Assembly: GCA_003136185.1 (NCBI GenBank)
Contig: PLDN01000119.1
Location: 11,124-44,595 of the forward strand
Length of the DNA: 33,472 bases
Reading direction: 5' to 3'
Source: Acidimicrobiaceae bacterium
GTDB lineage: Bacteria > Actinomycetota > Acidimicrobiia > Acidimicrobiales > Bog-793
The position numbers were made by a program, and so were the translations under genes. Under the pieces are notes generated by a model that did not search any database, was not told the DNA's origin, and saw only the letters and a program-made list of their open reading frames with translations. Below are positions 2,533-25,966 of the stretch, piece after piece. The stretch's first letter is position 1, and every line of letters begins with the position of its first letter.

Positions 2533-5268
2533 GTGATCTTTGACGGCTACTCCCATCAGGTCCCCGACATCGATCCGGAGGAGACGACGGAGTGGCTTGA
2601 CTCGTTCGACTCCGTGTTGGAGGGGCGCGGGCGAGAACGGGCTCGTTTCTTGCTGTTGAAGCTGCTCGAGCGGGCACGTGCCGCGCAGGTGGGCGTGCCT
2701 GCCACAGTCTCGACGCCTTACGTCAACACGATTCCGGCCGGTCAGGAACCCTGGTTCCCAGGTGACGAGCACCTCGAGCGGCGAATACGGGCGTACATCC
2801 GGTGGAACGCCGCAGTGATGGTCACGCGGGCGAACGCGCGTGATCCCGGCATCGGCGGCCACCTCTCGACCTACGCCAGCTCCGCCTCTCTCTACGAGGT
2901 CGGCTTCAACCACTTCTTCCGCGGCAAGGCGAACGGCCTTCCCGGCGATCAGGTGTTCTTCCAGGGGCACGCCTCGCCGGGCATCTATGCGAGGGCATTC
3001 GTCGAGGGGCGGCTCGACGAGGCGCATTTGGACAACTTCCGTTTCGAGACCGGTGGCGACGGGCTGTCGAGCTATCCGCACCCCCGCCTCATGCCCGAGT
3101 TCTGGGAGTACCCGACGGTCTCGATGGGGCTCGGCCCGCTCTCGGCGGTCTACCAGGCGCGCTTCAACCGCTACCTGTTGAACCGCGAGATCGTCGACAC
3201 CTCGGCGGCCCGCGTATGGTGCTTCGTCGGCGACGGCGAGTTCGACGAGCCCGAGAGTGCGGCCGCTCTCCGCCTTGCGGCGCGCGAGCGGCTCGACAAC
3301 CTCGTCTTCGTCGTGAACTGCAACCTTCAGCGGCTCGACGGTCCGGTGCGCGGCAACGGCAAGATCATTCAGGAGCTCGAGGCGCTGCTGCGCGGCTCGG
3401 GCTGGAACGTGATCAAGGTCATCTGGGGCCGCAAGTGGGACGAGCTCCTCGCTCGGGACGTCGACGGCGTGCTCGTCAACAAGATGAACACGACGCCCGA
3501 CGGCGACTTCCAGACCTTCTCGACCCAGCCCGGCGCGTACATCCGGGAGCACTTCTTCGGGCCCGACCCCCGCCTGCGCAAGATGGTGGAGCACCTCTCC
3601 GACCTCGAGCTGCAGCAACTGCCCCGCGGTGGGCACGACTATCGCAAGCTCTATGCCGCCTACAAGGCGGCGACAGAGCAGTCGGGCGCGCCCGTCGCGA
3701 TCCTCGCGAAGACGATCAAGGGCTGGACGCTCGGACCGGAGATCGAGGCCCGCAACGCCACGCACCAGATCAAGAAGATGACGCGCGATCAGTTGCGGAC
3801 GCTGCGCGACCGCCTCTACCTGCAAGCAGAGATCCCGGACGAGGCGCTCGACGCCGAGCACCCGCCGTACTTCCGGCCGGCTGCCGACTCGCCCGAACAG
3901 GAGTACCTGGTGGGCCGCCTCGCGGCGCTCGGTGGGTCACTGCCGCACCGCGTCGTCCGGGGACAGGGCGAGTCGGGGCTGGCGGCTCCGGCGCCGTCGG
4001 TCTTCGCAGAGTTCCTCGAAGGCTCGAGGGGACAATCCGTCTCCACCACGATGGCCTTCGCCCGCATGCTGCGCAGCATGTTGCGCGACCCGGCCATCGG
4101 GCAATACGTCGTGCCGATCATTCCCGACGAGGGCCGCACGTTCGGGCTCGACGGCCTCTTCTCCGAAGTGAAGATCTACTCAGCCGACGGTCAGCGCTAT
4201 ACCTCGGTCGACGCCGGGCTCCTGTTCTCGTACGCCGAGGACCAGCGGGGCCAGATCCTCGAGGAAGGCATCACCGAGGCCGGGGCGATGGCCTCGTTCC
4301 AGGCGGCCGGGACTGCCTACGCCAACTGGTCGACGCCCATGATCCCGATCTTTTTGTTCTATTCGATGTTCGGCTTCCAGCGCATCGGCGACATGATCTG
4401 GCAGTCGGCCGACGCGCGGGCGAGGGGCTTCCTCATCGGCTGCACGGCTGGGCGCACGACGATGAGCGGCGAGGGGCTGCAGCACGAGGACGGCCACTCA
4501 CAGTTACTCGCGTCAGTCGTACCGTCTATTCGCGCGTTCGACCCGGCATTCGCCTACGAGGTCGCCTTCATCATGGAGGACGGGCTGCGCGCGATGTACG
4601 GCCCGGATGCCGAGGACGTCGTCTACTACCTAACGATGTACAACGAGAACTACCCGATGCCGGCGCTCTCCGCCGATGCCGCCGAGCGCGACCGTGTGAG
4701 GGAGGGTGTCCTGGCGGGGGCTTATCGTTTCTTACCGGGTCCGAAGCTGAAGCGCGGGTCGGGCGGCGCTGGCCGCAAGGCGACCATCCTCTTCTCCGGC
4801 ACTGCGTGGCAGGCCGCGACAGAGGCAAGCGCACTGTTGGCCGAGAAGTGGAACGTGTCAGCCGAGTGCTGGTCGGTCACGAGCTGGAAGCAGCTGCGCG
4901 AGGGGGCGCTCGAAGCCGAGCGGTGGAATCGCCTGCATCCCGGCGGCGAGCGGCGGGTGCCATACGTCAGCCAGATTCTCTCGCAGGCCTCCGGCCCTGT
5001 GGTGGCCGTCACCGACTACTTGAAGGCGGTGCCCGACCAGATCTCACGTTTCGTGCCGTCGAGGTTCATCCCACTTGGCACCGACGGCTTCGGCCGGTCC
5101 GACACCCGCGCTTCGCTGCGTCGCCACTTCGAGGTCGACGCTGCCCACGTAGTGCTGGCCGTTCTCGCCGGCCTCGCAGAGAACGGCGAGGTGAAAGAGG
5201 ACGAGGTGAGCAAGGCGATCGAGGAGCTCGGCATCGATCCAGAGGTCGTCGACCCGCTCCGCGCGTAG
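2533..5268 (+). CDS. aceE: Pyruvate dehydrogenase E1 component, homodimeric type (AceE)
   Basis: The thiamine-diphosphate E1 of the pyruvate dehydrogenase complex decarboxylates pyruvate and passes the acetyl group to E2. At 911 residues it matches the long homodimeric AceE family (E. coli 887). Visible landmarks are GGHLSTYASSA (His110), FFQGHASPGIYARAF (His146), the ThDP/Mg motif GDGE at 233-236 ending in NCNLQRLDG near 262-270, and HEDGHS at 651-656 with the active-site histidines. The start is GTG at 2533 with GAGAAT 7 nt upstream rather than a ribosome site. No E2 or E3 gene is adjacent, which is common in actinobacteria. A DoxX-like gene follows 28 bp downstream. Confidence 0.96.
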   Translation: MIFDGYSHQVPDIDPEETTEWLDSFDSVLEGRGRERARFLLLKLLERARAAQVGVPATVSTPYVNTIPAGQEPWFPGDEHLERRIRAYIRWNAAVMVTRANARDPGIGGHLSTYASSASLYEVGFNHFFRGKANGLPGDQVFFQGHASPGIYARAFVEGRLDEAHLDNFRFETGGDGLSSYPHPRLMPEFWEYPTVSMGLGPLSAVYQARFNRYLLNREIVDTSAARVWCFVGDGEFDEPESAAALRLAARERLDNLVFVVNCNLQRLDGPVRGNGKIIQELEALLRGSGWNVIKVIWGRKWDELLARDVDGVLVNKMNTTPDGDFQTFSTQPGAYIREHFFGPDPRLRKMVEHLSDLELQQLPRGGHDYRKLYAAYKAATEQSGAPVAILAKTIKGWTLGPEIEARNATHQIKKMTRDQLRTLRDRLYLQAEIPDEALDAEHPPYFRPAADSPEQEYLVGRLAALGGSLPHRVVRGQGESGLAAPAPSVFAEFLEGSRGQSVSTTMAFARMLRSMLRDPAIGQYVVPIIPDEGRTFGLDGLFSEVKIYSADGQRYTSVDAGLLFSYAEDQRGQILEEGITEAGAMASFQAAGTAYANWSTPMIPIFLFYSMFGFQRIGDMIWQSADARARGFLIGCTAGRTTMSGEGLQHEDGHSQLLASVVPSIRAFDPAFAYEVAFIMEDGLRAMYGPDAEDVVYYLTMYNENYPMPALSADAAERDRVREGVLAGAYRFLPGPKLKRGSGGAGRKATILFSGTAWQAATEASALLAEKWNVSAECWSVTSWKQLREGALEAERWNRLHPGGERRVPYVSQILSQASGPVVAVTDYLKAVPDQISRFVPSRFIPLGTDGFGRSDTRASLRRHFEVDAAHVVLAVLAGLAENGEVKEDEVSKAIEELGIDPEVVDPLRA

Positions 5269-11436: not shown

Positions 11437-11643
11437 GTGACCAAGCGCCTGATCGATGTGGACGACGAGAAACTCGACGCGGTCCGATCACTTCTCGGCA
11501 CCCGCACGCTCAAGGCGACCCTCGACGGCGCGTTCGACGAGGTACTCGCTCTCGATCGGCGCCGCCGGGCCTTGCTGGTGGAACGAGGCATCGACATCGA
11601 GGAGTTGAAGGATCCTGACGCCCGTCGAGCAGCATGGGGCTGA
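11437..11643 (+). CDS. VapB-type antitoxin
   Basis: A 68-residue antitoxin. The start TKRLIDVDDEKLDAVRSLLG and the following TLKATLDGAFDEVL are typical of the small ribbon-helix-helix VapB antitoxins that pair with PIN toxins. The C-terminus (ERGIDIEELKDPDARRAAW) is the presumed toxin-neutralising tail and carries the frequent AAW ending. Its stop overlaps the toxin start by 10 bp. The GTG start at 11437 sits 6 nt after a -10 box and 7 nt after a palindromic site, so translation is predicted to be leaderless and self-regulated. Confidence 0.85.
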   Translation: MTKRLIDVDDEKLDAVRSLLGTRTLKATLDGAFDEVLALDRRRRALLVERGIDIEELKDPDARRAAWG

Positions 11644-12056
11644 GGCCGTACTACTTAGGCGATACGTCCGCGCTCTCGCGGGCAAGACAGCCTGAGGTCG
11701 CCGCCCGTCTGGTACCCCTCCTCGAAAGCGGGCTCGTCGCTCGCTGCACGCCGACAGACCTCGAAGCCGGCTATTCGTCAATGAGCCCTGCGTCGCATCG
11801 CTCGATGCGGGAAGCCCGATCCTCCTGGCCATTCGTGAACATGGACCAGCGCGTTCTGGATCGTGCCGTGACCGTGCAGGACATGCTCGCTTTCAGGAGC
11901 GCGCAGCGCGGAGCGAAGATCGCCGACCTTCTCATCGCAGCAGCCGCGGAAGCTGCCGGGCTGGTCGTCCTTCACTACGACCACGACTTCGATCTGATCG
12001 CAGACGTCACGGGCCAGCGGGCCGAATGGATCGTCCCTGCCGGTCTCGTTTCCTGA
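11634..12056 (+). CDS. PIN-domain toxin (VapC)
   Basis: A 140-residue PIN-domain ribonuclease, the toxin partner of the preceding antitoxin. The four acidic PIN residues are visible: Asp10 in YYLGDTSALSR, Glu44 in CTPTDLEAGY, Asp98 in RGAKIADLLIA, and Asp116/118 in HYDHDFD. The protein should therefore be catalytically competent; family members cleave tRNA or rRNA. The glycine at position 9, before the first Asp, is unusual because a hydrophobic residue is commoner there. The ATG at 11634 lies inside the antitoxin gene. Confidence 0.88.
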   Translation: MGLRPYYLGDTSALSRARQPEVAARLVPLLESGLVARCTPTDLEAGYSSMSPASHRSMREARSSWPFVNMDQRVLDRAVTVQDMLAFRSAQRGAKIADLLIAAAAEAAGLVVLHYDHDFDLIADVTGQRAEWIVPAGLVS

Positions 12057-12075
12057 CTCCCGTGCACATGCATAT

Positions 12076-12104
12076 TGCATGCATCCCAGATATAATGCAT
12101 GCAT
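12076..12104 (+). promoter_or_regulatory. TGCATGCAT repeats and TATAAT leaderless promoter of the second TA module
   Basis: TGCATGCAT occurs at 12076-12084 and 12096-12104, exactly 20 bp apart, each centred on the palindrome TGCATGCA. A further ATGCAT is at 12068-12073. Between them a perfect TATAAT (12091-12096) ends 6 nt before the ATG at 12103, so the second repeat covers the predicted transcription and translation start. This is a compact autorepressor arrangement. No -35 consensus is visible. Confidence 0.65.
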
Positions 12105-12339
12105 GAGCAAGTCGATAACCATCCGTGACGTACCTGACGAGACGAGCGAGTGCCTGGCTTCGCGTGCGGCGGCGACTGGCCGGTCTCTGCAGGAGTACCT
12201 GAAGGCGCGGCTGGTCGAGCTTGCCGCCAGCCCGGACGCAGAGGCCCTCGTCGCGACGATCCGCGCGCGGAAGCTGGTCACAGGCGGGTCGGTCACCGTG
12301 GACCAAATCCTTGCTCACCGTGACGCCGATCGAAGGTGA
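12103..12339 (+). CDS. Ribbon-helix-helix antitoxin (FitA/VapB-like)
   Basis: A 78-residue antitoxin. The N-terminal KSITIRDVPDETSECLASRAAATGRSLQEYLKARL is the ribbon-helix-helix DNA-binding fold seen in FitA-like antitoxins: a beta strand followed by two helices. The C-terminal GGSVTVDQILAHRDADRR is the probable toxin-binding tail. The ATG at 12103 is preferred over one at 12079 because TATAAT ends 6 nt before it and the upstream codons lie in the operator repeats. The stop overlaps the toxin start as GTGA. Its sequence is unlike the first antitoxin, so the two modules are not a recent duplication. Confidence 0.85.
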   Translation: MSKSITIRDVPDETSECLASRAAATGRSLQEYLKARLVELAASPDAEALVATIRARKLVTGGSVTVDQILAHRDADRR

Positions 12340-12728
12340 CGGTGATTGACGCGTCGGTCATGGTGGCAGCGCTGGTCGACGCCAGCCCAGTTGGCAGCTG
12401 GGCGGAGTCCGTGCTGCTCTCCGGTCCGCTTGCCGCTCCTCACCTACTCCCGATCGAGACCGCCAACGTCCTGCGACGCCTGGCTCTGGCAGGCGACATC
12501 TCCTCCGACGTGGCCGCCCTGGCGCACCGGGACCTGCTCGCGATCCGGATGGAGCTGTTCCCCTACGCTCCCCTCGGGGAGCGCGTCTGGGAGCTGCGGC
12601 AGAATGTCACCTCCTACGACGCCTGCTATGTCGCTCTTGCGGAGCTCCTCCGCGTGCCGCTGGCAACACTTGACGCGAGACTCACCCGCATCCCCGGCGC
12701 AACTTGCGAGTTCCGGCTACCCATCTAG
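12336..12728 (+). CDS. PIN-domain toxin (VapC-like)
   Basis: A 130-residue PIN-domain ribonuclease with all four acidic positions in place: Asp5 (VIDASVMVAAL), Glu41 (LPIETANVLRR), Asp95 (SYDACYVALAE) and Asp113 (TLDARLTR). The GTG start at 12336 overlaps the antitoxin stop by 4 nt, implying coupled translation. The last 12 bp overlap the end of the convergent amidohydrolase gene. PIN toxins inhibit translation by cutting structured RNA; this one's target is unknown. It differs clearly from the other PIN toxin 280 bp upstream. Confidence 0.88.
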   Translation: MTVIDASVMVAALVDASPVGSWAESVLLSGPLAAPHLLPIETANVLRRLALAGDISSDVAALAHRDLLAIRMELFPYAPLGERVWELRQNVTSYDACYVALAELLRVPLATLDARLTRIPGATCEFRLPI

Positions 12729-14021: not shown

Positions 14022-14480
14022 TCACACTTGACCGTCGGAGCGGAGGAATGAGCCGAGAACCATCATTGTCTTGGTGCCGATGATGTTGCAGCTACCGCGA
14101 AGCCGGTCGATCACCCGCTTGAGGTCCTGGACGTCTCGGACACGGATCCAGGCGAGAGCATCGGGATCACCTGCAACGGTGAACACCGCGTGGATCTCGG
14201 GGATGTCAGCTGCGATCGCCTCGATGCCCTCGACTCGGGTGCTCCCGGAAAAGCGAAGCTCGGCAAAGGCCTCGAGGGGCCGGCCGAGCTTGGCGTGGTC
14301 GAGCAATGTCGTGTACCCGCATATCACTCGCGACTGCTCGAGTCGATCGACCCGGCGCTTCACTGCGGGGGCGGAGAGGTTGACGCGCGCGCCGATGTCG
14401 CCGAACGTCCTGCGGGCGTTCTCTTGGAGCAGGTCTACGATCCGTTCATCGACGGCGTCTAACACGATCGGGGATTTCAT
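14022..14480 (-). CDS. Lrp/AsnC-family transcriptional regulator
   Basis: A 152-residue regulator of the feast/famine family. The N-terminus has the winged HTH (DERIVDLLQENARRTFGDIG, then VNLSAPAVKRRVDRLEQSRVICGY). The C-terminal RAM/ACT-like ligand domain covers about residues 65-145 (EIHAVFTVAGDPDALAWIRVRD). It is divergent from the MdeB-like E1 gene with 108 bp between the starts. In Pseudomonas putida the Lrp-type MdeR controls mdeAB, so a role as amino-acid-responsive regulator of the adjacent catabolic genes is a fair inference. Length and domain order are normal. The ligand is unknown. Confidence 0.92.
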   Translation of the reverse strand: MKSPIVLDAVDERIVDLLQENARRTFGDIGARVNLSAPAVKRRVDRLEQSRVICGYTTLLDHAKLGRPLEAFAELRFSGSTRVEGIEAIAADIPEIHAVFTVAGDPDALAWIRVRDVQDLKRVIDRLRGSCNIIGTKTMMVLGSFLRSDGQV

Positions 14481-14588: not shown

Positions 14589-16934
14589 GTGGCTGTCTCG
14601 CCGCCGACCTCGGCCTTCCCGCGCCCGTCAAAGGAAGAACTAGTGGTGCTGCAGAAAATCCAAGAGCGGGTTCTCTGGCTAGCCGTGAGCATGGTCCACC
14701 ACGCAAACAAGGTCCGAGTCACGCCGTCAGGCGTGAAAGTCGGAGGTCATCAGGCCTCTTCGGCATCCATGGTCAGCATCATGACCGCCTTGTTCTTCCA
14801 GCATCTGAAGGCGCCCGACAGGGTGTCGGTCAAGCCACACGCCGCACCCGTACTGCACGCCATTCACTACCTGATGGGCGGCCTCGATGAGCGCTACCTG
14901 ACCCAGCTACGGGCGTTTGGCGGTCTCCAGAGCTATCCGAGCCGGACGAAGGACCCCGACCCGGTGGACTTCTCCACGGGATCGGTCGGAATTGGCGCCA
15001 CGGCATCGATCTGGAGCGCGCTCGCGCAGCGCTACGTCAAGGATCATTTCGCCACTTCGGGGCAAGGGCGCCACATTGCTCTCATCGGCGATGCCGAGCT
15101 TGACGAGGGGGCGGTCTGGGAAGCTCTCGTCGACGCCATGGTCCCCCGGCTGGGCGAGGTTCTGTGGATCGTCGACCTCAATCGCCAATCGCTTGACCGT
15201 GTGGTGCCCGACATCGCTGCCGGTCGCATCGGAGCGATGTTTGACGCTGCAGGTTGGAACACGGTCACAGTCAAGTACGGGTCCCGACTTCGCGAGCTCT
15301 TCGCCATCGACGGGGGCGAGCAGCTTCAGTACCGAATCGACAGCATGGGCAATGAGGAGTACCAGCACCTGCTGTGCACGCCGGTAGGCGAAGTGCGGCA
15401 CGCGTTGGCAGGCAGCGGTGCAGAAGGCCCAGCCATACTGCGGCTCCTGAAAGAGGTCGATGACGAGAGCGTCGTCGACGCATTGAGCAACCTTGGAGGC
15501 CACGATCTGGGCGACCTGCTCGAAGCCTTCGCTGAAGCCGATCGGGTCACCGATCGGCCAACCGTGATCTTTGCCTACACAATCAAGGCTTGGCGCCTGC
15601 CTTCTCAGGGTCATCCAGGCAATCACTCAGCGCTGCTCTCGACCGAGCAGTGGCGCGCACTTGGGCAAGAACTCGGCGCCGACCCTGCTGACCCTTGGGC
15701 GCTCTTCCCCGCCGGCAGCCCCGAAAGCCACACATGCGCAGCCGCCGCTGAGCGACTGTACAGGTCGCCTGTTGCGCCGCATTGTGCCATACAGGTTCCT
15801 GTCGAGCTCGGGCGATCGCATCACACGAGCGAGTCGACGCAGCAGGCGTTTGGACGGTTCTTGTTGGATGTGTCCCGTCACGCTCCTGAGGTGGCGGCCC
15901 GGATCGTCACCGTCAGTCCCGACGTTGCCTCGTCCACCAACCTCGGGGGTTGGATAAACCGAGTCGGCATCTGGCATATGGAGGATCGTCCCGATTGGTT
16001 CAGCGACGACCGCGACACACTGGTTCACTGGAAGGAGTCGCATAAAGGACAGCACATCGAACTCGGTATCGCCGAGGTAAACCTCGTTGGATTACTTTCG
16101 GAGCTGGGTGCAACGTGGTCACGCGATGGCGAGCCTCTCATGCCCATCGGTACGCTGTATGATCCGTTCGTCGCCCGAGCTCTAGAGCCGTGGTCGTTCG
16201 GAATGTACGCGGGAGGGCAATCCATACTGATAGGTACTCCCTCCGGGATAACTCTCGCCCCCGAGGGCGGTGCCCACCAATCCATTATCACTCCTTCTAT
16301 AGGGCTCGAGCAGCCCGGTTGCATTGCGTGGGAGCCCGCGTTCGGCCAAGACCTGGAGTGGACGCTGCTGGCTGCGCTCAGCAATCTAGGTCGGCCCGGG
16401 GGCACTTCTGGGTACTTCAGACTGAGCACTCGCCCGATCGCCCAGGCGCTCGCCGCCGTGCCGGAAGACCCGGAGGCCCGAGAAGATCGGCGTCGCGCCG
16501 TTGTCGAGGGTGGCTATCGGTTGCGCGAGACCGAGGGCCACCCGAACGTGACCCTGGTCGGTGTCGGAGCCGTCATGCCCGAGGTGCTCTCGGCTGCAGC
16601 GGAGCTCGAAGCGAACTCAGTTGCTTGCGACGTGGTGTGTATCACCTCAGCCGACCTCGTGTTTCGTGCTCTCCGGAGGCGACAGGGCTTCGGGTCCGGC
16701 AAAAGCGACATCTTGGAACGGCTCTTCCCGCGGGATCGGGCCGCGCCGATCGTCTCGGTGCTCGACGGTCATCCGCACACTCTGGCGTTCCTTGCTGCGA
16801 TCACGAGCACACCAATCGCATGCCTGGGCGTCGACGACTTCGGCCAGGTCGGTGAGGTCAGCGACCTCTACAAGCACTTCGGGATCGACGCCGCCACCAT
16901 CGTGGGAGCTACATGGGACCTTATCGACCAGTGA
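14589..16934 (+). CDS. 2-oxoacid dehydrogenase E1, MdeB/AceE-like (transketolase superfamily)
   Basis: A thiamine-diphosphate enzyme of 781 residues related to AceE but clearly distinct from the aceE in this window. It retains GGHQASSASM (His54), HAAPVLHAIHYL (His84), GDAE at 167-170 with Asn198 (the ThDP motif, with GDA rather than GDG), IELGIAEVNLVGLLSELG, EGGAHQSI and the C-terminal DDFGQVGEVSDLYKHFGID. These features resemble MdeB, the 2-oxobutyrate dehydrogenase E1 of P. putida, which also lies beside an Lrp regulator. The likely role is oxidative decarboxylation of a short 2-oxo acid using E2/E3 encoded elsewhere. Its neighbours, a threonine dehydratase and an aminotransferase, could both supply 2-oxo acids. 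The GTG start rests on the -10 box 6 nt upstream. Confidence 0.85.
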   Translation: MAVSPPTSAFPRPSKEELVVLQKIQERVLWLAVSMVHHANKVRVTPSGVKVGGHQASSASMVSIMTALFFQHLKAPDRVSVKPHAAPVLHAIHYLMGGLDERYLTQLRAFGGLQSYPSRTKDPDPVDFSTGSVGIGATASIWSALAQRYVKDHFATSGQGRHIALIGDAELDEGAVWEALVDAMVPRLGEVLWIVDLNRQSLDRVVPDIAAGRIGAMFDAAGWNTVTVKYGSRLRELFAIDGGEQLQYRIDSMGNEEYQHLLCTPVGEVRHALAGSGAEGPAILRLLKEVDDESVVDALSNLGGHDLGDLLEAFAEADRVTDRPTVIFAYTIKAWRLPSQGHPGNHSALLSTEQWRALGQELGADPADPWALFPAGSPESHTCAAAAERLYRSPVAPHCAIQVPVELGRSHHTSESTQQAFGRFLLDVSRHAPEVAARIVTVSPDVASSTNLGGWINRVGIWHMEDRPDWFSDDRDTLVHWKESHKGQHIELGIAEVNLVGLLSELGATWSRDGEPLMPIGTLYDPFVARALEPWSFGMYAGGQSILIGTPSGITLAPEGGAHQSIITPSIGLEQPGCIAWEPAFGQDLEWTLLAALSNLGRPGGTSGYFRLSTRPIAQALAAVPEDPEAREDRRRAVVEGGYRLRETEGHPNVTLVGVGAVMPEVLSAAAELEANSVACDVVCITSADLVFRALRRRQGFGSGKSDILERLFPRDRAAPIVSVLDGHPHTLAFLAAITSTPIACLGVDDFGQVGEVSDLYKHFGIDAATIVGATWDLIDQ

Positions 16935-17033
16935 TCAATACCGATGGATGTCTGGTCACAATCTCACCCGGTCAGTATAGTGGAATGCAGTACTGCCGAG
17001 TGGCACTAATCAATCTCGTCGTAGAGGATACAA

Positions 17034-17309
17034 ATGTCCGACCATCTGCTGCTTGTTACCTATTTGTCTCCCGAGTTTCAGCGGGCGCTCAGCGCGGCGA
17101 AAGAGCGCGCTGGGCTCACGGAGTCTGAAGTACCAGTGGTGCACGTCCGGGCGACCGAGGGCGCCGACACTCTCGCCATCGTGGAGGCCACCTTCGTCGA
17201 GGTGGGCAGCGGTCGGAGTCCGCGCTGGGAGCTGCACGAGCGGGCTGGTCAGACTCTCCCGGGGAACTTGCTACGCCGCCGCGATAGCCCGTTTGAGGCG
17301 ACGCCTTGA
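17034..17309 (+). CDS. 91-residue protein of unknown function, coupled to the aminotransferase
   Basis: I do not recognise this protein. It opens MSDHLLLVTYLSPEFQRALS and has an alpha/beta pattern (VPVVHVRAT, DTLAIVEATFVEV) with a charged, Arg-rich C-terminus and no membrane segment or cysteine motif. GAGG lies 6 nt before the ATG. Its stop overlaps the TTG start of the aminotransferase as TTGA. Lying between an E1 and an aminotransferase gene in one unit, it could be a small accessory or regulatory subunit, but nothing in the sequence proves this. Confidence 0.6.
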   Translation: MSDHLLLVTYLSPEFQRALSAAKERAGLTESEVPVVHVRATEGADTLAIVEATFVEVGSGRSPRWELHERAGQTLPGNLLRRRDSPFEATP

Positions 17310-18658
17310 GTACCAACGATGTTGCTGTCGGCGGCCTCTCCCCTGAGGCCGCCGACTTGTACGCCCGAGACATGGCCGCCGTGGCGGGCATCGAGAAGGT
17401 CCGGTTTTTCCCCTTGGCCGTAGTCGCCGGCGAAGGCAGCTGGCTCGTCGAGGCCGGCGGCCGGCGGCTGCTCGACCTGAGTGCTACCTGGTGCGCGGCT
17501 GGCCTCGGCCATGGCCATCCGCGTGTCGCAGAGGCCATTCGACAAGCGGTCGCCACACCTGCGGGAGCGAGCGGCCAGTCCATCGTGCATCCCGATTCGG
17601 TCGGCTTAGCCGAGGACCTCCTCGCCCTCGTGCCCGGCAAGGCGGACCGACGCGTGTATCTCGGTCACGCGGGCAGCGACGCCAACGACGCTGTCCTGCG
17701 AGCAGCCCGGCGCGCCACCAACAAACGGCGGGTCGTGGCATTTCGCCACTCGTATCACGGCGGCTTCGGCATCGCCATGGCTGCGTCGGGCGTCAGCGTG
17801 GACTCCGGCTCCGCTCCATCTGACCCGGACGTCTCCTTTGTTACCTTCCCCAACCCGTACCGGGCGCCGGGAGAAGACCCGAGCCCGGCCGAGGCCGCCC
17901 GGACACAGGCTCTCGCCGAAGTCGAGGAAGCGCTGGCCGCCGGCGACGTAGCCTGCTTGATCGCCGAGCCGATCCTGGCAGATGGCGGTCTCGTGGTGCC
18001 GCCCGCCGGCTTCTTTGCTGACCTCGAGCGGTGCTGCCGACGCCATGGGGTGCTGCTTGTCTGTGACGAGGTCAAGGTCGGTCTCGGCCGCACCGGTCTC
18101 CTCCATGCCTTCCAGCTCGACGGCGCCTCGCCCGACATCGTCACCTTCGGGAAGGTTCTGGGGGGCGGCCTGCCGCTGTCCGCCGCGGTGGGGCCGGCCG
18201 AGGTGCTCGACGTCCCGGCTGCCACAGCTCTGCTCACCACCGCCGGGAATCCGATATGCGCGGCGGCGGGGCGGGCGGTACTCAGAACCATCGTCGACGA
18301 GGAGCTTCCCGAGCGAGCCGGGCGAGCCGGTGAACGGCTTCGCGCCGGGCTGCGCGCGCTGAACCATCCAGCCATCGGTGATGTTCGCGGCCACGGTCTT
18401 GCGATCGGCGTTGAGCTGGTTACCGACCGAGAGACACGCACGCCCGACCGTGCCCTCGCGGCGAAGACCGTCTTCCGGGCTTTCGAGCTCGGAGCTGTCG
18501 TCTTCTACGTCGGCGGCAACGTACTAGAGCTCACTCCTCCCCTCGTCATTACCGACACCGAAGTAGACCTGGCGGTCGAGCTGGTCGGTCGCGCCTTGGA
18601 AGATGCAGCCTCCGGGCGGGTGCCTGACGACGCTGTCACTCCCTACAGCGGATGGTGA
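17306..18658 (+). CDS. Class III pyridoxal-phosphate aminotransferase
   Basis: A 450-residue fold-type I aminotransferase of the omega-amino/GABA class. PLP-site features are AGSDANDAV (122-130), SYHGG (149-153), Asp254 in LVCDEVKVGLGRTG and the Schiff-base Lys283 in FGKVLGGGLPL. The usual DEVQTG reads DEVKVG here, a change at residues that line the PLP pocket, so the substrate may be atypical. Relatives act on 4-aminobutyrate, beta-alanine, diaminobutyrate and similar amines. The TTG start overlaps the stop of the 91-residue gene. It ends 78 bp before the convergent threonine dehydratase gene, with a strong hairpin in between. Confidence 0.88.
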   Translation: MSTNDVAVGGLSPEAADLYARDMAAVAGIEKVRFFPLAVVAGEGSWLVEAGGRRLLDLSATWCAAGLGHGHPRVAEAIRQAVATPAGASGQSIVHPDSVGLAEDLLALVPGKADRRVYLGHAGSDANDAVLRAARRATNKRRVVAFRHSYHGGFGIAMAASGVSVDSGSAPSDPDVSFVTFPNPYRAPGEDPSPAEAARTQALAEVEEALAAGDVACLIAEPILADGGLVVPPAGFFADLERCCRRHGVLLVCDEVKVGLGRTGLLHAFQLDGASPDIVTFGKVLGGGLPLSAAVGPAEVLDVPAATALLTTAGNPICAAAGRAVLRTIVDEELPERAGRAGERLRAGLRALNHPAIGDVRGHGLAIGVELVTDRETRTPDRALAAKTVFRAFELGAVVFYVGGNVLELTPPLVITDTEVDLAVELVGRALEDAASGRVPDDAVTPYSGW

Positions 18659-23999: not shown

Positions 24000-25064
24000 C
24001 TACGCTGTGCGGGCACGGTGTGACTCCGGGTCGTCATGTAGCTCCTTCGACAGCTCTATGGCGATGTCGATGATCATGTCCTCTTGTCCCCCCACGTAGC
24101 CCGCCTCACCGACGCGCTGAAGGATCTCGTGGGCGGGCACGCCGTAGCGGGCTGACGCTCGCTCGGCGTGGCGCAGAAAGCTCGAGTAAACGCCTGCATA
24201 CCCCTGCACGATGGAGGCCCGGTCCATCGAAGGCAGGCGCGGGATGTAAGGCCGCACCACGTCTTCGGCGGCCGCCAGGGCAGCCTGCGGCTCTACGCCC
24301 GTAACGACACCGAGACGCTCAAAGACCGCGACCAGCACCTCGGTGGGTGCGTTGCCGGCCCCCGCGCCAAGGGCACACAGAGCGCCATCGATCTGCTTGG
24401 CGCCCGACTGGTAGGCGAGCACGGAATTGGCGATGCCGAGGGACAGATTCTGGTGGCCATGAAACCCAACCTCCGCCTCCCCGCGAAACTCCGCCACCAG
24501 AGCAGCGATGCGCTCCTGTGCGTCCGAGAGCATCAATGCGCCGGCCGAGTCCACGACATAGACGCATTGCGCTCCAGCATCGACCATGATCCTCCCTTGC
24601 CGAGCGAGTTCCTCTGGTGAGGCCCGGTGAGAGAGCATCAGAAAGCCGACCGTCTCCATTCCCAGACTCCGCGCAGCCCCAAAGTGCTGGATAGCTACAT
24701 CGGCTTCGGTGCAATGGGTAGCAATGCGGGCGACGGACGCACCTACGTCATGGGCTCGTTTGAGGTCGTCGGCTGTGCCGATGCCTGGAATCAGCAGCAC
24801 AGCGATTCTGGCTCGGTTCGCCTCATCTACCGCTGCCGAGACGAGATCGATGTCGCTTTGACGAGAGAAACCGTAGTTGAATGAGGATCCTCCGAGTCCG
24901 TCGCCATGCGATACCTCGATGACTTGCACGCCCGCCGCGTCCAGAGCGTGGACGGTGACACGTACCTGTTCCTCGCTGAATTGATGGGACATGGCATGGG
25001 AACCGTCGCGCAATGTTGAGTCAGTGATCCGAACGTCCAAGGCCGGAGCGCCAGCGAGGGTCAT
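24000..25064 (-). CDS. mhpE: 4-hydroxy-2-oxovalerate aldolase (MhpE/BphI type)
   Basis: A 354-residue HMGL-like pyruvate aldolase that cleaves 4-hydroxy-2-oxovalerate (or the C6 analogue) to pyruvate and acetaldehyde (or propanal). STLRDGSHA supplies Arg19, Asp20 and His23. The metal ligands are His202 and His204 in GFHGHQN, and Tyr293 in AGVYSSFLRHAE matches the stereocontrol tyrosine of BphI. The communication domain at the C-terminus is complete. The start is ATG 25064 or GTG 25067; both overlap the dehydrogenase stop, so the pair is coupled and probably forms the known aldolase-dehydrogenase channeling complex. No hydratase gene (mhpD) is present. Confidence 0.94.
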   Translation of the reverse strand: MTLAGAPALDVRITDSTLRDGSHAMSHQFSEEQVRVTVHALDAAGVQVIEVSHGDGLGGSSFNYGFSRQSDIDLVSAAVDEANRARIAVLLIPGIGTADDLKRAHDVGASVARIATHCTEADVAIQHFGAARSLGMETVGFLMLSHRASPEELARQGRIMVDAGAQCVYVVDSAGALMLSDAQERIAALVAEFRGEAEVGFHGHQNLSLGIANSVLAYQSGAKQIDGALCALGAGAGNAPTEVLVAVFERLGVVTGVEPQAALAAAEDVVRPYIPRLPSMDRASIVQGYAGVYSSFLRHAERASARYGVPAHEILQRVGEAGYVGGQEDMIIDIAIELSKELHDDPESHRARTA

Positions 25065-25966
25065 CACGAAGCCGCAAGCGCTCTCGACCGCGCGAGGCGC
25101 TCGCCGACGCTCGCCGCGGCTGCGGTCATGATGTCAAGGTTTCCCGCATACGGCGGCAAGTAGTCTCCGGTACCTCGAACCTCGAGGAATACCGCCACGC
25201 GGCCCTGTCCTGCCCACTCTTCACGCGGGCCGTCGAACTGAGGATCGGCGCGGAGCGCATATCCAGGCACGTAACCTTTAACCGTGTCAACCATCTCGAA
25301 CACAGAGGCGGCAATCGCGTCCTGATCCGCATCGTCGGGCACGGTACAGAAGACCGTGTCCCGCATAATCATGGGTGGCTCGACGGGATTCAGGATGATG
25401 ATCGCCTTGCCGCGCGTCGCACCGCCGACGGTAGCCACAGCCAGCGACGTCGTCTTGGTGAACTCGTCAATATTGGCCCGGGTGCCAGGCCCGGCCGATC
25501 GCGAAGCAATGGAGGCAATAATTTCGGCGTAGGCCACCGGCACGACCCGGGACACCGCGCTGACGATCGGAATCGTGGCTTGGCCGCCGCAAGTGATCAT
25601 GCTGATATTCGGGGAGTCCAAGTGCTGAACGAGATTTACGGGCGGACACACGAGCGGGCCCACCATGGCGGGAGTCAGGTCGACGGCTTGGATTCCGGCC
25701 GCAGCATATCTCGGCGCGTTGGCGAGATGAGCTTTGGCACTTGTGGCCTCAAAGACGATTTGCGGACGCTTAGGGCGGTCAAACAACCAGTCGACACCCT
25801 CGGCGGAGGTCTCTATCCCCTGCTCCCTCGCTCTCGCGAGGCCGTCCGACTTCGGATCAATACCGACCATATAGACGACTTCGACATACTCTGAGCGCTG
25901 TAACTTGGCCAACAGATCTGTGGCGATATTGCCGGAGCCTACGATTGCGGCTGGCACCTTACTCAT
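25064..25966 (-). CDS. mhpF: Acetaldehyde dehydrogenase, acylating (MhpF/BphJ type)
   Basis: A 300-residue CoA- and NAD-dependent aldehyde dehydrogenase that converts acetaldehyde (or propanal) from the aldolase to the acyl-CoA. NAD-binding GSGNIA is at 10-15 and the catalytic Cys126 is in [13 protein letters not shown]. The C-terminal [12 protein letters not shown] segment is normal for the family. AAAGGG lies before the ATG at 25966. It heads the minus-strand gene series. About 590 bp upstream has no gene and two copies of a 10-bp repeat. In known pathways it follows meta-cleavage of aromatics or sterols, but no such genes are in the window. Confidence 0.94.

Follow-up and report, generated by a model that had tools for sequence, protein, structure and literature searches.

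The open reading frame (ORF) at positions 17034–17309 of the plus strand, which encodes a predicted protein of 91 aa (P0001), is best explained as a lineage-restricted small protein gene that forms the first part of a two-gene unit with a PLP enzyme, occupies a slot held by a permease in relatives of that enzyme, and probably hands ribosomes over to the TTG start of the enzyme gene. This reading is held with about even confidence. All positions refer to the window, that is, the whole stretch of 33,472 nucleotides from an Acidimicrobiaceae bacterium that was analysed.

Gene Layout and Coding Character

The ORF begins with ATG at 17034 and ends with TGA at 17307–17309, and since an in-frame stop lies three codons 5′ of this ATG, it is the most upstream ATG, GTG or TTG available. 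The ribosome-site-like AGAGGA (17023–17028, plus strand) stands 5 nt ahead of the ATG, and another such site, GAGG (17295–17298, plus strand), lies within the ORF, 7 nt ahead of the TTG at which the PLP enzyme gene begins (17306–17308); the background of SD-like 4-mers is 13.7% of positions. The ORF stop and the TTG start overlap by 4 nt, TTGA, at 17306–17309 of the plus strand. Both the ribosome site and the overlap had been pointed out by the sequence-only reading, and both are confirmed. The gap between the upstream E1-like gene and the ORF measures 99 nt and contains a sigma-70-like promoter match, TGGTCA-17-TATAGT (16953–16981, plus strand), with 9/12 consensus matches and some 50 nt ahead of the ATG of the ORF; one promoter-like site was found in the gap vs 0.1 expected in shuffles, as a match to the consensus only. 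The ORF probably has its own promoter. Read-through from the E1 gene is also possible, because no terminator-like site was found in the 99 nt between them. No Rfam element was matched in 16800–17400 at E ≤ 1.

In terms of composition, the GC content steps from 48% in 16938–17033 to 66% in the ORF, and the GC at codon positions 1, 2 and 3 (0.725, 0.505 and 0.758) resembles that of a reference set of 22 window genes chosen by the analyst. Because 11.3% of dinucleotide shuffles stay open, the length of the ORF alone is no argument for coding. The codon-position GC contrast was matched by 0 of 5000 shuffles. Per codon, the log-odds score is 0.102, which ranks in the 18th percentile when set against 304 true-gene windows, and 6% of 1520 wrong-frame windows surpass it. 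The plus strand is favoured over the codon-aligned antisense by 6.25 nats, which was attained by 0 of 295 mirrored gene windows. A gene on the antisense strand was considered and rejected: its frame is open for 85–86 codons, it has no Pfam match, 0 of 97 other genomes matched it at E 0.01, and the codon model favours the plus strand. The ORF is taken as protein-coding with moderate confidence on this compositional evidence, and the earlier impression of a real, coupled coding gene gains from the periodicity, the strand preference and the overlap.

Search for Relatives of P0001

At the family level, P0001 has no match in Pfam (up to E 10), NCBIfam, PHROGs or PDB sequences, which agrees with the earlier statement that its family could not be recognised. 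No match was found in phages, the plasmids gave a single one (a Pandoraea plasmid, E 0.4), and pattern scans of contigs from genomes and viruses, which detect close relatives only, returned nothing. The genome samples overlap one another, and each includes the own genome of the window. Besides this genome, two weak matches (L005 and L006, E 0.003–0.009) were obtained in 98 related genomes, none at E 0.001 in 397 genomes of the order, one in 396 genomes of the phylum (L129, E 2.3e-4) and one in 395 genomes of the class (L135, E 6.0e-4). After multiplying by the number of genomes searched, the expected counts at these last two levels are about 0.09 and 0.24. In the reversed-sequence control of 396 genomes, four matches reached E ≤ 0.01, the best of them (0.0046) being weaker than those in L129 and L135. 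Since a Mur ligase-type gene occupies the other strand at the L129 match, matches of P0001 at about E 2.3e-4 arise by chance. The L135 match lies inside an amidohydrolase (Amidohydro_1, Pfam), at 35% across residues 18–79 in a gap-free alignment of 60 residues; this amidohydrolase resemblance, stronger than any in the reversed-sequence control, may be a distant lead but is not supported. In 14 genomes with homologues of the PLP enzyme, the matches to P0001 were weak throughout, with 3 of the 14 at E ≤ 0.1.

As far as sequence searches can tell, P0001 is an orphan, with no homologue beyond chance-level matches in several hundred related genomes and the collections named above. That is to say, it combines a coding-like ORF with the lack of a detectable homologue outside its lineage in the collections searched, as ORFans do. 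A single-sequence AlphaFold2 model was poor (mean pLDDT 47.4, pTM 0.32). The sequence-only reading had named two things that would speak against a genuine gene, the absence of homologues and synonymous/non-synonymous ratios like those of non-coding DNA; the former was found, but the composition is coding-like.

The PLP Enzyme and Its Permease Slot

The downstream gene (17306–18658, plus strand, TTG start) encodes a class-III fold PLP enzyme of 450 aa. Compared with solved structures, it aligns over its full length with the racemase group at 376–414 bits, vs at most 217 bits for dialkylglycine decarboxylase and GABA transaminases. The top seven chains are alpha-amino-epsilon-caprolactam racemases, an amino acid amide racemase and four deposits entitled ‘Aminotransferase class-III’, which align almost as the racemases do. 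The EPxxxDGG (xDGG) motif, whose Asp is presumably the residue with the racemase role, is present in the window enzyme and, by pattern, in 79 of 80 homologues, leaving one unmatched. These homologues come from the best 80 of 144 candidate loci, taken from named genomes. The transaminase annotation of 17306–18658 is probably wrong, judging by the nearest relatives, the alpha-amino-epsilon-caprolactam and amino acid amide racemases; the ‘aminotransferase’ of the earlier reading, which falls closest to these racemases, is better handled as a racemase-type enzyme. In 98 related genomes, one match besides its own was found at E ≤ 1e-70, with 38% identity, which makes the PLP gene foreign to the close relatives searched. 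Its top homologues among the best 80 of 144 loci have about 71–73% identity, including that of an Acidimicrobiaceae MAG (L049).

In 52 of these best 80 of 144 loci, an APC permease ends at the start of the PLP gene, and sorting the 80 by identity of the PLP enzyme places the permease in 52 of the 59 at ≥57% and in 0 of the 21 below. The stop/start overlap in the 52 permease loci is 4 nt in 46, 1 nt in 5 and 8 nt in 1. Seven loci at ≥57% identity were missed; among them, the permease was present on separate inspection in L067 and L091, a MerR regulator lies upstream in L055 and a glutamine-synthetase-like gene in L058, and L104 ends at the contig end. By this comparison, the PLP gene has long had a coupled stop/start junction, and its normal partner there is the permease. 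In the window, the ORF holds the permease slot and makes the same type of junction, while P0001 is absent from all 80 loci (the best of 144).

Two possible traces of a permease were sought and rejected. A tblastn search of 16935–17305 in six frames with 13 upstream proteins, mostly permease, gave chance-level results (best E 0.03), and a likeness of the ORF C-terminus to the tail of the L049 permease, spotted by eye, was lost on alignment. The own genome (90% complete) yielded no close copy of the permease, its relatives there being 23–26% identical and the best-scoring one 23%.

The wider loci of the PLP homologues show further genes. A glutamine-synthetase-like gene lies upstream of the homologue in L049, L101, L056 and L058 and resembles gamma-glutamylputrescine synthetase at 192–232 bits, below the cut-off of 650; two of these loci, L049 and L058, also have an Amidohydro_2 gene that follows. 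The cluster of PLP homologue, glutamylamine-synthetase-like gene and usual APC permease may, from its gene content, possibly serve amine or lactam utilisation.

The E1 Neighbour and Other Genes of the Window

The upstream neighbour of the ORF is a transketolase/pyruvate dehydrogenase E1-like gene (14589–16934, plus strand, 781 aa), whose closest solved relative is a pyruvate dehydrogenase E1 (159 bits); an AsnC/Lrp-type regulator (14022–14480, minus strand) is divergent from it. The E1 was found at E ≤ 1e-60 in 20 of 98 genomes, own included, and the comparison covered 20 loci from 19 other genomes; at L014 and L033 the sequence breaks off at E1 or soon after it. At E 1e-3, neither the PLP enzyme nor the ORF was detected in any of the 20 loci. 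The divergent AsnC-type regulator adjoins E1 in 5 of the 20 (L028, L029, L030, L033 and L042). At the level of these loci, the pairing of E1 and PLP enzyme is not conserved.

The window holds a second E1-like gene at 2533–5268, with a strong match to the E1 middle domain (284 bits), vs a weak one (29 bits) for that at 14589–16934. In addition, a FitA-like antitoxin gene and the PIN-domain gene behind it overlap by 4 nt at 12079–12728, with another PIN-domain gene just upstream (11634–12056); by their predicted products, the genes at 11634–12728 are a VapBC/FitAB-type toxin–antitoxin module. On the minus strand at 24000–25966, the genes for 4-hydroxy-2-oxovalerate aldolase and acetaldehyde dehydrogenase overlap by 4 nt, a meta-cleavage-type catabolic pair with SDR, cupin and aminotransferase genes around it.

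Origin and Role of the ORF

The sequence-only reading had taken the ORF for a likely accessory subunit or specificity factor of the E1 or the aminotransferase-like enzyme, in view of its position between their genes and of the overlapping stop and start. This now seems very improbable: the ORF is absent from the 20 E1 loci and from the 80 PLP-enzyme loci (best 80 of 144), and the 14 genomes with PLP-enzyme homologues hold only weak matches, so that as a rule neither enzyme is accompanied by it. Nor does it co-occur with E1 or the PLP enzyme across genomes as a conserved accessory subunit would. The proposed E1–aminotransferase unit itself recurs in 0 of 20 E1 loci, the ORF stands beside neither partner elsewhere (the check beside E1 genes gave 0 of 20 loci in 19 other genomes), and the usual coupled partner 5′ of the aminotransferase-like gene is the APC permease (52 of the best 80 of 144 loci). 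Because the junction belongs to this permease partner of the downstream gene, overlapping stop and start codons are not enough to make a subunit of a small ORF next to an enzyme gene.

It is also conceivable, though unlikely, that the ORF is an accidental open frame, or one in decay, within GC-rich DNA at a former permease site, giving no functional protein. The lack of homologues, the share of shuffles (11%) that remain open at the ORF length and the low pLDDT of the model would fit such a frame, but its codon-position periodicity was never reached by the shuffles, the plus strand is favoured over the antisense, the ATG has a well-placed ribosome site, and residue of a permease is undetectable in six frames. 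We give a similarly low probability to the ORF being a real member of an existing family, too diverged or short to be recognised and maybe a fragment of a larger enzyme. Its coding-like composition and the weak L135 amidohydrolase match, which surpasses the best reversed-sequence control, lean that way; against this, about 0.24 matches of that level are expected over the 395 genomes, the better L129 match is antisense to another gene and hence at chance level, and Pfam gave nothing up to E 10.

For the preferred reading, a lineage-restricted gene in the permease slot, the ORF would be transcribed from the promoter at 16953–16981 rather than by E1 read-through only. Ribosomes ending the ORF may then start again on the PLP enzyme gene at its weak TTG, so that translation of the ORF would set the output of the enzyme, as translation of the permease would in relatives. 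We infer this hand-over to be the most economical mechanism. Probably the chemistry does not need the peptide as such, or the peptide plays some minor part specific to the lineage. The codon score on the low side, the weak consensus match of the promoter, the possible E1 read-through across the short gap and the 90% completeness of the genome count against this explanation. A more specific version, which we consider rather doubtful, is that a gene of recent origin emerged at, or was transferred to, the position of a lost permease, where it has been retained for the ribosome hand-over to the TTG and not for its product. Were this hand-over the sole reason for keeping the ORF, it would provide a small, testable case of orphan-gene retention.

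Comparison with Known Systems

The downstream PLP enzyme shares a full-length match and the xDGG motif with the alpha-amino-epsilon-caprolactam and amino acid amide racemases (2zuk, 3dxv, 5m49 and 6gio). Like the APC permease in the cluster around the PLP enzyme (L049, L101, L051 and others), the ORF lies directly upstream of the enzyme gene with an overlap of 1–4 nt; however, the permease is a membrane protein of about 500 aa, whereas the ORF encodes 91 aa, and no sequence similarity was found between them. The ORF adds another case, neatly placed among its neighbours, to the orphan genes already known. As in microbial ORFans, P0001 is short, coding-like and without a detectable homologue in the searched collections, but it differs from them in occupying a defined operon slot, which in relatives belongs to an APC permease.
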